Of a stretch of DNA of 64,000 nucleotides, positions 5,501-63,587 are shown piece after piece. Below the pieces are notes generated by a model. It saw nothing but the letters and a program-made list of their open reading frames with translations. It was not told the DNA's origin and did not search any database. The position numbers and the translations under genes are program-made. Source of the DNA: Bacteroidales bacterium (GTDB lineage Bacteria > Bacteroidota > Bacteroidia > Bacteroidales > FEN-979); contig JANXZO010000048.1 of NCBI GenBank assembly GCA_025355465.1, positions 22,869 through 86,868 on the forward strand, given 5' to 3'. Every line of letters begins with the position of its first letter. The first letter of the stretch is position 1.

Positions 5501-6073
5501 ATGCTCCTGGAAAAAAATAAATCAGTTAACCGCCTTGGGTGGATCGAAGTGATCTGCGGCTCCATGTTCTCAGGCAAAACCGAAGAGCTGATACGTCGGC
5601 TGAAACGGGCCCGTATCGCCAGACAGAAGGTTGAGATTTTCAAGCCTGCCATCGACACCCGTTACGACGATGTAAACGTGGTGTCGCACGACACCAACTC
5701 CATCCTGTCGACCCCGGTCGAAGCTTCCTCCCAGATCCTGCTACTCACCAACGATGTGGATGTGGTAGGCATAGACGAGGCACAATTTTTCGACAACGAG
5801 CTCGCCTCCGTGTGCAACACCCTTGCCAACCAAGGCATCCGCGTTATCGTGGCCGGTCTCGATATGGATTACCTGGGCAAACCTTTCGGTCCTATGCCGT
5901 CGCTCATTGCCATCGCCGAAGAGGTGATCAAGGTGCACGCTATTTGCATGAACTGTGGCGACATTTCACAATACACTCACCGGAAGGTGAATGACGACCA
6001 CCTCGTCATGCTCGGCGAAACCGACAGCTACGAGCCGCTGTGCCGACGGTGTTACCTCGAAAAAACGAGTTAA
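5501..6073 (+). CDS. tdk: Thymidine kinase
   Basis: [25 protein letters not shown] Walker [12 protein letters not shown]-terminal Cys pairs CMNCGD...CRRCY; start set at ATG 5501 rather than 5462. Confidence 0.93.
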
Positions 6074-6114
6074 TGTAGTAATGTGGTGATGTGGTAATGT
6101 GATGATGTGGTAAT
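6071..6114 (+). repeat. Degenerate 8-bp tandem array, unit ~TAATGTGG, 5+ copies
   Basis: TAATGTAG|TAATGTGG|TGATGTGG|TAATGTGA|TGATGTGG|TAAT; begins at the tdk stop codon. Confidence 0.9.
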
Positions 6115-6131
6115 TGAGAAGACTGTTGGGA

Positions 6132-6482
6132 TTATTTAATTGTTGATTTTACAGTAGCAATAATTTTTGATAATACTTTTTTAATAGCAACTACTTTCTC
6201 TTGCAGTATCATTGGGGAGGGATAGGCTTTTGATTCATTACAAAGCAAAAGCCAATATTCCGTCTCGCTGGCTTCCTTGGCAGCAATTTTCATTTTATGA
6301 ATAAAGTCGGCCTTACTTTCAGAATTTTGTGCCTCCCTGACATTTGCCCCAATCGATGTTCCTGATTTTAATAGTTGACTGGCAATAACATATTTCCTTC
6401 TCACCTCAAGAATTTCACAATAAGCTATAATTTCAACCGAAAACTCAAAAGAGAGTTCTTGTATTACATTCCTGCTTTCCAT
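6132..6482 (-). CDS. Four-helix-bundle protein, S23 / 23S rRNA intervening-sequence protein family
   Basis: SQLLKSGTSIGANVREAQNSESKADFIHKMKIAAKEASETEYWLLL is the S23 family signature. Confidence 0.88.
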   Translation of the reverse strand: MESRNVIQELSFEFSVEIIAYCEILEVRRKYVIASQLLKSGTSIGANVREAQNSESKADFIHKMKIAAKEASETEYWLLLCNESKAYPSPMILQEKVVAIKKVLSKIIATVKSTIK

Positions 6483-6584
6483 TTCAGATGATTTTGATTA
6501 AGAAATAAACTGAAAACTGATATTTACTTAATCAGAAAAATGGAAAAAGGTAAACCTGATTTTCAAAATAAAATCATTTTACCC

Positions 6585-6644
6585 CATCAACACATTACCA
6601 CACTACCACATTTTCACATTGGCACATTGGCATATTGGCACATT
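6585..6644 (+). repeat. Degenerate 8-bp tandem array, unit ~CATTACCA/CATTGGCA, 7 copies, inverted relative to 6071-6114
   Basis: CATCAACA|CATTACCA|CACTACCA|CATTTTCA|CATTGGCA|CATTGGCA|TATTGGCA. Confidence 0.9.
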
Positions 6645-11786: not shown

Positions 11787-12966
11787 AGTTTACCTCGCGC
11801 TCCTGAGCCTCATTAAAGGTGAAGTTCAGGGCTGGGATTTCGGGGTCATCGGTAAAATGGTTGATGGTTGGGGGTACGATGTTGTTCTTCGTGGCGAGCA
11901 GGGTGGCAATGGCTTCGATAGCGCCGGTGGCACCCAGCAAGTGGCCGGTCATGGATTTTGTTGAGTTGATGTTCATCTTAAAGGCGTTATCGCCAAAAAG
12001 GCTTACGATGGCTTTGGGTTCTGCAATGTCGCCGGCGGGTGTGGAGGTTCCATGGGTGTTGATATGATCCACCATGTCGGTCGAAATCCCGGCATCCTCT
12101 ACAGCCATTTTCATGGAGAGGATGGCCCCCAATCCTTCGGGGTGGGGGGCTGTGATGTGATGGGCATCGGCCGATAAGCCGGCACCAACCACCTCACCAT
12201 AAATTTTGGCACCCCGTTTCAAGGCGTGACCGAGTTCTTCGAAGATGAGTGCGCCGGCACCTTCACCCATTACAAAACCATCGCGATCCATGTCGTAGGG
12301 TCGTGAAGCGGTGGTTGGATCGTCATTCCGGGTAGAGAGTGCGTGCATGGCAATAAACCCGCCCATTCCGGCTGTTGTAATAGAGGCTTCCGAGCCACCC
12401 GTAACAAAAATATCGGCCTTACCCAACCTGATGTACATCAGCGCATCGGCGAGGGCATTGGTGGAGGAGGCGCAAGCTGAAACAGTGGCGAAGTTTGGAC
12501 CGCGAAAGTTGTATTTCATGGAAATATGGCCTGCGGTAATGTCGGAGATCATCTTGGGGATAAAGAACGGGTTGAAGCGCGGTGTTCCGTCGCCCGAAGC
12601 AAAAGCGGAAACCTCCGTGATGAAGGTCTCTAGTCCGCCGATACCGGAAGCCCAGATGACCCCAACCCTGTTAACATCCACTCCGTCTATTTCAATGCCG
12701 GCATCCTTCACGGCCTGGTCGGCGCAAACAATCCCATATTGAGAGCAACGGTCGAACTTCCGGGCCTCTTTGCGGTCGAAATAGTCCTCCGCATTGAAAT
12801 TTTTCAGTTCACAGGCAAACTGTGTCTTGAATTTGGAAGTATCAAACCGGGTTATCGGACCGGCACCACTGACTCCGCGGATGAGGTTGTTCCAGTATTC
12901 TGTGACTGAATTCCCCAAAGGAGTAAGTGCGCCAAGACCAGTTACAACAACTCGCCTTAATTCCAC
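11716..12966 (-). CDS. fabF: 3-oxoacyl-ACP synthase II
   Basis: RRVVVTGLGALTPLG, ACASSTNALADA, NTHGTSTPAGD, SNTFGFGGHNASIIFK. Confidence 0.95.
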   Translation of the reverse strand: MELRRVVVTGLGALTPLGNSVTEYWNNLIRGVSGAGPITRFDTSKFKTQFACELKNFNAEDYFDRKEARKFDRCSQYGIVCADQAVKDAGIEIDGVDVNRVGVIWASGIGGLETFITEVSAFASGDGTPRFNPFFIPKMISDITAGHISMKYNFRGPNFATVSACASSTNALADALMYIRLGKADIFVTGGSEASITTAGMGGFIAMHALSTRNDDPTTASRPYDMDRDGFVMGEGAGALIFEELGHALKRGAKIYGEVVGAGLSADAHHITAPHPEGLGAILSMKMAVEDAGISTDMVDHINTHGTSTPAGDIAEPKAIVSLFGDNAFKMNINSTKSMTGHLLGATGAIEAIATLLATKNNIVPPTINHFTDDPEIPALNFTFNEAQEREVNYALSNTFGFGGHNASIIFKKFKE

Positions 12967-31814: not shown

Positions 31815-32482
31815 AGAGTCACAGAGTCACAGAGTCACAGGGGCACAGGGTCACAAATATTTTTTCACTATTTCGCCATTTCGCCATTTCGCTATCTCTT
31901 TTAACTGCATTTACTGCCTTTGGCCAAACAAACTATGCGCAACAACAAGATGCATTTTCAAAAAGCTATGCCTTCGAATCGCGGGGTAATTTTTCGGATG
32001 CCATCACATCCATGAAGAGCATTTACCAAGAGGATTCCTATGAGATCAACCTGCGACTTGGATGGGTTACCTACCTGGCCGGGCTTTTTACCGAATCCTC
32101 TGCATATTATCAAAAGGCCATTAAACTGAAACCCTACGCCATTGAAGCCCGGATCGGGTTTGCCAACCCGGCCTCCGCCCTGGGTAATTGGGATCAGGTA
32201 GTGGCAGTATACAATGAAGTACTGGCCATCGACCCCCAGAACACGACGGTGAATTATCGCCTGGGGTCGATCTATTACGGGAGAAAGGATTACGCGAAAG
32301 CTGAAAAATATCTTGAAAAGGTGATTAACCTATACCCGTTTGATTTCGACAGCATGTTACTCTTTGCATGGACCAATTACCGTCTTGGAAAAATGCGCGA
32401 AGCCCAGGTGTTGTTCAACAAGGCCCTGCTTTCAAGGCCCAACGATACCTCGGCCAAAGAGGGACTGGGACTGATCAAATAG
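31802..32482 (+). CDS. Exported TPR-repeat protein; N-terminus encoded by repeat arrays
   Basis: TPR-type helices (YAKAEKYLEKVINLYPFDFDSMLLFAWTNYRLGKMREAQVLFNKAL). Confidence 0.75.
   Translation: MEAIKSHRVTESQGHRVTNIFSLFRHFAISLSLLTAFTAFGQTNYAQQQDAFSKSYAFESRGNFSDAITSMKSIYQEDSYEINLRLGWVTYLAGLFTESSAYYQKAIKLKPYAIEARIGFANPASALGNWDQVVAVYNEVLAIDPQNTTVNYRLGSIYYGRKDYAKAEKYLEKVINLYPFDFDSMLLFAWTNYRLGKMREAQVLFNKALLSRPNDTSAKEGLGLIK
31816..31855 (+). repeat. 8-bp tandem array GAGTCACA x5
   Basis: GAGTCACA x3|GGGGCACA|GGGTCACA. Confidence 0.92.
31866..31897 (+). repeat. 8-bp tandem array CGCCATTT x4
   Basis: CACTATTT|CGCCATTT|CGCCATTT|CGCTATCT; reverse-complement family of 8302-8325. Confidence 0.88.
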
Positions 32483-61022: not shown

Positions 61023-61613
61023 ATGCTTGATACCAATAATGCACAGAGGCACAGAGGCACAGAGGCACAAGGGCACATTGCCACATTATCACATTATCAC
61101 ATTACCACATTACCTTCCCCTCAGTGGTTAGCCCTTTACACCAAGTCAAGACAGGAAAAGATTGTCATGAAGCGGCTCATCGAGGATGGGATTGAGGCGT
61201 TTGTTCCGTTGCACCGTGTGGTGCGGCAGTGGAGCGACCGGAGGAAGCTGGTGGAGGAGCCTTTGATCCGCTCCTACTGCTTTGTGCATGTGATCCCAAC
61301 GAAGCAGCACCAGGTGCTGAATACGCCGGGTGCCGTTCGTTACGTATGGTTCAGCGGCCGGCCGGCTGCCATACCGGCGAAGCAGATCGACCTTTTGAAG
61401 ATATTAACGGGGTATAATATCCCTGTAGAGTGCATACCGGGCACCATCAAGCCGGGCAGCCTGGTGAAGATCACGGCAGGACCTATGGCCGGTTATACCG
61501 GAGAACTGGTTTCGGTACTGGGAAAAAGCCGGGTAATTGTGCGGCTGACGGAGCTGGAAACGGCGATTTCGCTGACGATTTCGCCGATGCTACTGGAAAA
61601 AATTAGGAGTTAG
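61023..61613 (+). CDS. UpxY/RfaH-like NusG-family transcription antiterminator
   Basis: QWLALYTKSRQEKIVMKRLIEDGIEAFVPLHRVVRQWSDRRKLVEEPLIRSYCFVHV, KOW-like VKITAGPMAGYTGEL. Confidence 0.85.
   Translation: MLDTNNAQRHRGTEAQGHIATLSHYHITTLPSPQWLALYTKSRQEKIVMKRLIEDGIEAFVPLHRVVRQWSDRRKLVEEPLIRSYCFVHVIPTKQHQVLNTPGAVRYVWFSGRPAAIPAKQIDLLKILTGYNIPVECIPGTIKPGSLVKITAGPMAGYTGELVSVLGKSRVIVRLTELETAISLTISPMLLEKIRS
61041..61112 (+). repeat. Nine uninterrupted 8-bp units, GCACAGAG family grading into TCACATTA family
   Basis: GCACAGAG x3|GCACAAGG|GCACATTG|CCACATTA|TCACATTA x2|CCACATTA. Confidence 0.93.
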
Positions 61614-61644
61614 GAGTTAAAAGTTAAGAGTTAAGAGTTAAGAG
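61603..61644 (+). repeat. 7-bp tandem array TTAAGAG x6
   Basis: TTAGGAG x2|TTAAAAG|TTAAGAG x3; contains the upxY-like stop codon. Confidence 0.93.
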
Positions 61645-61655
61645 CTAGGCTAGGT

Positions 61656-61994
61656 CTATTGGGACTGAAAGGGCGAAGCTGTGGGAGTTAGTAACCCGGT
61701 TTCTCTAAGAAGTTTGATCCAAAAACTCGTTTCACGGGTTTCTTTATAGACAATCGTCATTTTAGCTATAACATCACGTTTTGAACATGCACCCAAGGCC
61801 TCTTCCATATTAGCGCCAATAGATGTTCCTGATTTTAAAACCTGCTTAGAGATTACAAACTCCTTCCTCTTCTGCAAATACTCAGAAAGTTTGACTATTC
61901 TCACAACAAACAGAAAAGCTTTCTTTTGAATAATACTGTCAGCCAGAAACCCTTTTATGCTTAATCGGGAAAAAAGCAAAAAGTAAACTCCCAA
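61656..61994 (-). CDS. S23-type four-helix-bundle protein, probably C-terminally truncated; start uncertain
   Basis: SIIQKKAFLFVVRIVKLSEYLQKRKEFVISKQVLKSGTSIGANMEEALGACSKRDVIAKMTIVYKETRETSFWIKLLRETGLL. Confidence 0.85.
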   Translation of the reverse strand: MGVYFLLFSRLSIKGFLADSIIQKKAFLFVVRIVKLSEYLQKRKEFVISKQVLKSGTSIGANMEEALGACSKRDVIAKMTIVYKETRETSFWIKLLRETGLLTPTASPFQSQ

Positions 61995-62055
61995 CTCTTA
62001 ACTCTTAACTCTTAACTCTTAACTCTTAACTCTTAACTCTTAACTCTTAACTTTT
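61986..62055 (+). repeat. 7-bp tandem array AACTCTT x10, inverted relative to 61603-61644
   Basis: AACTCCC|AACTCTT x8|AACTTTT. Confidence 0.95.
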
Positions 62056-62450
62056 GTTAGATACCCTCATCACCAACAAAACCCGCGTCAAACTGCTGCT
62101 CCGGTTCTTTCTGAACCCCGAAGCGAAGGCTTATCTTCGCGGACTGGAGGAGGAATTCGGCGAATCGACCAACGCCATCCGGATCGAACTCAACCGCTTT
62201 GAAGCGGCGGGTTTGCTGGTAAGCTGGGAGGACAAAAACAAGAAAATGTTTTCGGCGAATCAGCAGCACCCGCTGTTTACCGACGTCAGCAGCATCCTGC
62301 GACCCGATCGACAAGGAATATCTTATGTCCCTCACCAATAAAGCAACAGGCCTCATCAAGCGCAACATCAATTGTACCGCCCTTCCCGGAGCAGATGAAA
62401 CGGCATTTCTGAAAAATAACCGGGATGCAATGCTGGTGTGGAAAAAATGA
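62054..62450 (+). pseudogene. Winged-HTH regulator of EPS-locus type, internally deleted and frameshifted
   Basis: Frame 1 MLDTLITNKTRVKLLLRFFLNPEAKAYLRGLEEEFGESTNAIRIELNRFEAAGLL...DVSSIL then other frame DPIDKEYLMSLTNKATGLIKRNINCTALPGADETAFLKNNRDAMLVWKK*. Confidence 0.7.
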
Positions 62451-63494: not shown

Positions 63495-63552
63495 CGCCTT
63501 CACGTTGAAACCAACCATTCAAAATCAACATTATATTGAATCTTGCCATTTA

Positions 63553-63587
63553 ACTTTTCACTTTTCACTATTCACTATTCACTTTCC
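63553..63587 (+). repeat. 7-bp tandem array ACTATTC/ACTTTTC x5
   Basis: ACTTTTC x2|ACTATTC x2|ACTTTCC; ends 2 bp before ATG 63590. Confidence 0.85.

Follow-up and report, generated by a model that had tools for sequence, protein, structure and literature searches.

A decayed S23 gene between inverted heptamer arrays, probably a copy of a compact mobile element without a recognised transposase

The window analysed here, a stretch of 64,000 nucleotides from a Bacteroidales bacterium (assembly GCA_025355465.1, contig JANXZO010000048.1, positions 22,869 to 86,868), carries near its right end a minus-strand S23 gene that lies between two inverted tandem arrays of a 7-bp unit, reading GAGTTAA on the left and TTAACTC on the right. 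The enclosed gene belongs to the S23/23S_rRNA_IVP family, matching both PF05635 (E=2e-18, 67 bits versus a curated cut-off of 33.8) and TIGR02436 (E=5e-21, 74.9 bits versus 24). Tandem Repeats Finder (TRF) placed the arrays at 61603-61644 (period 7, 6 copies) and 61993-62052 (period 7, 8.6 copies, 100% matches) and, as a preliminary description of this DNA had claimed, 61619-61644 (AAAAGTTAAGAGTTAAGAGTTAAGAG) is the exact reverse complement of 62030-62055 over 26 nt. No longer exact complementarity exists between the two flanks, and their local inverted alignment scores 75, compared to a maximum of 30 in 1000 Markov shuffles. The same description held that the match goes beyond generic repeats in that it includes a variant unit (AAAAG/CTTTT), and this variant is indeed mirrored. 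Neither 26-nt sequence has a second copy in the window, and at this locus (L006) the variants follow a mirrored order beyond what unit shuffling gives (p=0.042). The right array is C-rich on the plus strand and hence G-rich on the sense strand of S23. We conclude that the feature is probably a decayed copy of a compact mobile element, the S23 element, with lineage-specific tandem-array arms and without a recognised transposase. Read 5' to 3' on the S23 strand, this element comprises a G-rich array of 7-8 bp units, often a short leader, an S23 gene of ~120 codons and an inverted C-rich array, together ~450-500 bp.

Inverted arms accompany S23 genes well beyond this locus. With arms called at an inverted-array alignment score of at least 30, we found them at 65/75 S23 loci of the host family, in which every one of 43 genomes carries 1-22 S23 copies, and at 55 of 75 usable GTDB loci (73%) spread over many phyla (Bacteroidota, Acidobacteria, Clostridia, Planctomycetes, Ignavibacteria, Anaerolineae, Proteobacteria, candidate phyla and others). 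By comparison, only 11/441 control open reading frames (ORFs) in the GTDB loci reached this score (2.5%), at least 4 of which are in fact S23 genes, and none of 30 cold-shock genes of the host family had inverted arms. S23-bearing plasmid records are almost all cyanobacterial; there, array flanks were present in 6/6 cases, five of them scoring 52-63, and consist of heptamers such as AGGGAGT and AGGGAAC. Viral contigs likewise showed array flanks at most of their S23 loci. Units differ by locus, in agreement with the earlier view that the association does not depend on a particular unit. The strand read from outside to inside is G-rich in 119/125 scored loci, with G exceeding C in the upstream arm by 63:2 and by 56:3 plus one tie (63/65 and 56/60). 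Since the arms are inverted, either strand shows this polarity, which is therefore a feature of the hairpin rather than of the direction of transcription. A few non-S23 genes also lie between inverted arrays, namely gmhA (L099) and a CYTH gene (L390). The latter, a CYTH-domain-like gene (12084-12557), sits between inverted AGGCACGA arrays (L390:12008-12663) whose unit is that of a resident S23 locus (L046), and is possibly a host gene captured between arms.

The host genome, examined as sampled stretches, holds nine S23 genes, six of which have clear inverted arms built from six different units. Among these is the first S23 element of the window (6071-6644), for which the architecture previously described with an 8-bp unit was confirmed: TRF reports period-8 arrays at 6071-6114 and 6607-6644, and the arms pair with a score of 49. 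Of the remaining copies, one (C72) has lost one side beside a transposase-like gene, one lies at a contig end (C43), and one is divergent and without arms (C54).

Comparison of filled and empty alleles shows that, where sites are otherwise identical, the whole of array-S23-array is either there or missing. The evidence comes from five sites (A, C, D, E and F) in other genomes, namely cyanobacterial plasmids and viral contigs, and none of it from the window copy itself; the empty alleles are array-free spacers of 0-13 bp. At site A (filled in L152/L155, empty in L157), the flanks are 98% identical, the empty spacer is 13 bp and array-free, and in the filled allele GTAAT (5 bp) stands on both sides of array-S23-array. 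At sites C (L154 versus L163-L168), D (L164/L167 versus L154, L163, L165, L166 and L168) and E (L151/L169 versus L170-L172), an empty gap of 0-3 bp becomes 420-505 bp when filled. At site F, on viral contigs (L358-L360/L387 versus L384-L386, L388 and L389), the empty sequence ...GATT|AGACTCC... corresponds to GATT-[CCTTGAGG...S23...CCTTCCTC]-ACACTCC in the filled allele, without duplication. Degraded forms were found at sites A and B: L156 retains a piece of S23 and a single arm, in L158 the arms enclose no more than a tiny loop, and in L161 the sequence between the arms is unrelated. The element also recurs with its arms at unrelated places: in non-syntenic pairs of >70% identical copies within the Bacteroidota family (L178-L182, L178-L209, L203-L211 and L197-L198), the alignment covers exactly the arms and S23.

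The repeat unit follows the S23 lineage and not the genome of origin. Across 2016 locus pairs, arm similarity was flat at ~0.15 below 50% S23 protein identity and rose to 0.65 above 70%, a relation that was unaffected by shared genome and that includes non-syntenic copies. The preliminary suggestion that the association is "structural rather than by sequence descent" therefore survives in part: units are unrelated between distant S23 lineages, but among close ones they track descent. The same description proposed testing whether unit variants are always mirrored between the flanks. When units were shuffled over whole arrays, 17/91 loci showed mirrored order at p<0.05 (Fisher p=1.5e-9), which is above shuffling but, with a median p of 0.23, far from universal. 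Such mirroring would arise from unequal slippage together with repair of one arm from the other.

Arrays are dense in this genome, at about one per 6 kb, and TTAACTC is among the common units. Even so, TTAACTC arrays do not commonly lie inverted around just any gene: the unit occurs at about 11 places in the genome, and in 464 kb inverted same-unit pairs within <1.2 kb were found only round S23 and in one hairpin with a 5-bp loop. In this genome, 31 of 64 S23-free arrays match the flank units of resident S23 genes, compared to a mean of 6.1 and a maximum of 15 for 300 random unit sets from other genomes. These data suggest that S23-free solo arrays and short palindromes with resident units are non-autonomous or remnant derivatives of S23 elements. 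One S23-free hairpin (C7:56502-56594 in the host genome; L033; L232:16503-16594) consists of a GAGTTAA array, a 5-bp loop and a TTAACTC-like array, resembling a miniature inverted-repeat transposable element (MITE) form of the window unit. Solo arrays without an inverted partner also occur in the window at 61041-61114 (GCACAGAG/CACATTAC), 31815-31892 (AGAGTCAC/ATTTCGCC) and 63549-63585 (TTTCACT), in spacers or gene starts.

Table 1. Coordinates of the two S23 loci of the window and of the neighbours of the decayed copy
Feature	Position	Strand	Details
Left array	61603..61644	+	~6 copies of GAGTTAA, G-rich strand on +; TRF period 7
Host spacer motif GGGACTGAAAGGGCGAAGCTGT	61661..61682	+	between upxY and the winged-helix-type (wHTH) gene; outside the element
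Array-like unit GGGAGTTAG	61683..61691	+	directly abuts the truncated 3' end of S23
S23 / 23S_rRNA_IVP / four helix bundle gene, decayed	61656..61994	-	CTG or upstream TTG start; PF05635, TIGR02436
Leader motif TTTACTTTTTGCTTTTTTCCCGATTAA upstream of S23	61961..61987	-	regular expression and reading
Right array, S23-upstream arm	61993..62055	+	~8.6 copies of TTAACTC, ends in variant CTTTT; TRF period 7
Host gene upxY (NusG-like antiterminator), left neighbour	61128..61613	+	NF033644, E=1e-40
Host winged-helix-type regulator, right neighbour	62054..62341	+	ORF; wHTH assignment by resemblance
First S23 element, S23-downstream arm, unit TAATGTGG	6071..6114	+	TRF
First S23 element, S23 gene, apparently intact	6135..6485	-	PF05635, E=1.7e-20
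First S23 element, leader motif TTTACCTTTTTCCATTTTTCTGATTAA	6528..6554	-	
First S23 element, S23-upstream arm, unit CACATTAC/CACATTGG	6591..6644	+	TRF

The window copy is damaged at both ends of its gene (Table 1). Its frame has CTG where relatives have ATG shortly after the GATTAAG leader and, when aligned with L003, L004 and the first window copy, lacks the last ~20 C-terminal residues, in place of which there is a short read-through whose final codons run into the host motif. A complete frame of ~115 residues is thus retained by the first window copy but not by this one. The array-like unit abutting the truncated 3' end is probably a remnant of the S23-downstream arm. The 22-bp host motif sits between the left array and S23, and relatives keep it with or without S23 or arrays; those with the motif in the orthologous upxY-wHTH spacer include L235-L241, L246, L247 and L249, and the shared form is T(G)TGACYGAAAGGGCGAAGC. 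This spacer is array-free in L240 and L249 and holds solo arrays of other units in L235-L238 and L241. Because the host motif intervenes, 61603-61644 is not a clean end of the element, and the earlier statement that the gene is bracketed by inverted arrays needs qualifying: the arrays are present, but the left one is separated from a decayed gene by host sequence. The first unit of the left array overlaps the stop codon of the UpxY gene, and the regulator starting at 62054 has orthologues in 21 other genomes of the family.

Two further observations concern this spacer. One relative (L246, genome G032) has its own damaged, truncated S23 element there, with an extra, third array of its unit on the upxY side of the motif; compared with the window copy, it indicates that the upxY-regulator spacer may be a recurrent S23 insertion site. 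The motif itself, TGTGACYGAAAGGGCGAAGC, which is conserved in the upxY-regulator spacer of many family genomes (window 61661-61682, L235-L249), is a possible leader RNA or antitermination site.

We considered the leader motif as a part of the S23 element and dropped it. In the form GGTTTACCTTTT..N..CCGATTAAGCA (both window copies; L224:6442 and L227:1131 on the plus strand; L259, L262), it precedes S23, ORF6N and GxxExxY genes, and a strict match (TTTAC[CT]T...GATTAA) lies upstream of only 7/74 S23 genes. Because it also stands before ORF6N and GxxExxY genes, it is more likely a shared regulatory signal.

The complementary arms can pair to form a single long hairpin, whether in RNA or in single-stranded DNA, and the predicted fold is strong for the window copy (z=-6.4) and for L150 (z=-6.6). 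Among the solved S23 relatives (2gsc and 2rld), 2gsc forms a homopentameric ring in which each member is a four-helix bundle (PMC4990558). In the mechanism that we propose, the S23 protein would recognise the repeat or hairpin of its own lineage and bring it to a host enzyme for cutting and copying, with a general host activity completing insertion. Pairing of the arms, with template switching or slippage, would keep the two arms alike while letting units drift between lineages. Insertion mostly into short intergenic spacers would make the element harmless, and a similar element in a ribosomal RNA (rRNA) loop would be an intervening sequence (IVS), such that rRNA IVSs may be the rRNA-resident form of the S23 element. 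In the window, the element would have entered the upxY-wHTH spacer, where its start codon, 3' end and the greater part of one arm later disappeared.

Several observations weigh against a mobile S23 element. Movement itself was not observed directly, and the part of S23 in it is something we infer: no catalytic motif is recognised in the protein, no other part of the element resembles an enzyme, and the two candidate partners in trans, reverse transcriptases (RVT_1) and Y1 transposases, are each missing from several genomes rich in S23. There is no constant target-site duplication, site A having one of 5 bp, site F lacking one and the other sites giving an unclear picture, and at site B the filled and empty alleles differ by more than the insertion. 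About a quarter of the GTDB S23 loci score <30. In genome G028 (9 of its 22 S23 loci), 8/45 arrays matched cognate units versus a mean of 4.6 and a maximum of 13, which is not significant, and because of this weak result the dispersal of cognate arrays is suggested rather than settled. At the window locus, the host motif inside the bracket means that the pair may be one arm plus a separate array of the GAGTTAA/TTAACTC unit.

The very stable stem predicted around S23 (z about -6.5) would also suit a device acting at the RNA level, in which the arms fold the S23 transcript into a long stem for processing, for example by RNase III, or for regulation of S23 and its neighbours, mobility being incidental or absent. 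Insertions inside operons and the precedent of IVSs excised by RNase III (PMC4990558) point the same way. We regard this as unlikely, since empty sites and non-syntenic copies show that the block moves, S23 is often opposite in orientation to its flanking genes, as in the window, and the match between unit and S23 lineage is far closer than pairing alone requires. The empty-site comparison shows that the arms belong to the mobile unit, and not to a local RNA structure that merely encloses the gene. The same comparison bears on target choice, in which the arrays would be host microsatellites and S23 genes would enter the loops of array hairpins that were already there. This genome has many S23-free arrays, one of them being the short-loop hairpin described above, and IVSs replace small loops of rRNA helices (PMC4990558). 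However, no array is present in the unoccupied alleles of sites A, C, D, E and F, which largely refutes a pre-existing target at these five sites, and arm units track the S23 protein rather than the genome; we consider this explanation quite improbable.

Retro-mobilisation, in which an Avd-like S23 protein would work with a reverse transcriptase in trans to copy the hairpin RNA into new sites, seems to us improbable to a like degree. Short terminal tandem repeats are typical of ends made by reverse transcriptase. S23 is also related to Avd (phrog_3206, E=1.5e-10; PMC10053308), which in diversity-generating retroelements (DGRs) acts together with the reverse transcriptase. However, RVT_1 had no match in seven genomes that carry 6-15 S23 copies and are at least 95% complete, nor was it seen beside the window copies, and its copy number correlated weakly with that of S23 over 43 genomes (rho=0.25, p=0.10), compared to 0.37 for Y1 transposases and 0.54 for GxxExxY (p=0.0002). 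Y1_Tnp was missing from five genomes of at least 95% completeness that hold 7-16 S23 copies, and two genomes (G015 and G018) lack both families; neither is supported as an obligatory partner. The ordinary explanation, that two unrelated variable-number arrays happen to flank a small gene, draws on the array density and common unit noted above and on the host DNA that separates the left array of the window from S23. It is refuted for S23 genes as a class, 73-87% of which have arms, compared to 2.5% of other genes and none of the 30 cold-shock genes, and the exact 26-nt match with its mirrored variant likewise speaks against chance juxtaposition. We hold it to be highly improbable overall, and possible for the window pair taken alone.

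S23 is not the only protein with this layout. GxxExxY (PDDEXK_3) genes, which are nuclease-like and of a family unrelated to S23, lie between inverted arrays as well: 22/32 loci from this genome and 25 others of the family (L258-L260, L265-L293) score at least 30, with longer units such as ACACGAAG and ACACAGAG. This supports a general architecture and not a peculiarity of S23. ORF6N genes were tried as a third class and not counted, with inverted arms at 2/33 loci, although they share the leader motif in this genome. At one locus (L263), a palindromic array pair occurs twice in direct orientation, one copy on each side of an ORF6N gene, together with a duplicated piece of a neighbouring gene (TTCGAAGCTCATCACCACATTGCCCTCCAT). 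We tentatively suggest, at somewhat less than even odds, that S23 and GxxExxY together represent a new class of minimal, transposase-free mobile elements in many phyla, whose ends have no fixed sequence and consist of inverted tandem arrays with a unit of 7-8 bp (S23) or more (GxxExxY) that co-evolves with the enclosed recognising protein, the heptamer arrays of cyanobacteria, Bacteroidota and Xanthomonas being their non-autonomous progeny and IVSs their rRNA-resident form.

If the protein sets the repeat, the ends of this mobile element would be free to drift, provided that protein and repeat do so together. Such elements would escape tools that search for terminal inverted repeats of conserved sequence, a possible reason for their having been overlooked although S23 genes occur in every one of the 43 family genomes. 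The structure of the S23/IVP family has been solved, but to our knowledge its function is not known; nor do we know of an explanation for the origin of rRNA IVSs, or of an agreed cause for the abundant heptamer arrays of cyanobacteria, Bacteroidota and Xanthomonas. One element would tie these three together, in ways that are all testable, the filled and empty alleles defining its exact ends.

PADLOC gave no match, and we found no paper in the open literature (a search that did not extend to subscription journals and preprints) linking S23 genes to repeat arrays. With MITEs and insertion sequences, the S23 element shares inverted ends, insertion into spacers and deleted derivatives, but its ends are not conserved in sequence and it has neither a transposase nor a constant target duplication. 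Avd of DGRs has a homologous fold and family, but the S23 loci that we read show array flanks in place of a linked or resident reverse transcriptase or a template/variable repeat. A parallel in layout exists with RAYT and its repetitive extragenic palindromic (REP) sequences and REPINs (PMC3116915), in which a gene likewise stands between inverted short repeats, hairpin-forming non-autonomous copies are dispersed, and repeat families are matched to gene lineages. There, however, the gene encodes a Y1 (HUH) transposase, whereas S23 is an unrelated four-helix bundle and some S23-rich genomes lack Y1; a REP is moreover one palindrome, and S23 arms are tandem arrays of a variable unit. As no Y1 transposase is present, the S23 element is not a member of this group.

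The heptanucleotide repeats of cyanobacteria (short tandemly repeated repetitive sequences, STRR), of Xanthomonas (GGGAATC, with 70-75 convergent pairs; PMC4692102) and of Beggiatoaceae (TAACTGA; PMC4679880) are G-rich 7-mers in spacers like the S23 arms, from which they differ in that the arrays of S23 elements are tied to S23 genes and to mobility. Text searches of these two papers found no mention of S23; Xanthomonas campestris is the source of the solved S23 protein XCC0516 (2gsc). Finally, IVSs with an S23 ORF are known from Leptospira and Coxiella (PMC4990558). Both they and the S23 element contain a PF05635 protein whose ORF is bordered by complementary, stem-forming sequences, as over 26 nt here, and both are sporadic in distribution, IVSs being regarded as selfish. 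IVSs lie within rRNA genes, whereas S23 elements lie in spacers between protein genes; no Rfam match was found anywhere in the window, and the neighbours of the window copy are upxY and a regulator gene. Lying outside rRNA, it is by definition not an IVS. The arms differ too, those of S23 elements being built from tandem copies of a 7-8 bp unit that is specific to the S23 lineage and apparently has relatives at other places in the genome, and we propose that IVSs descend from the S23 element.
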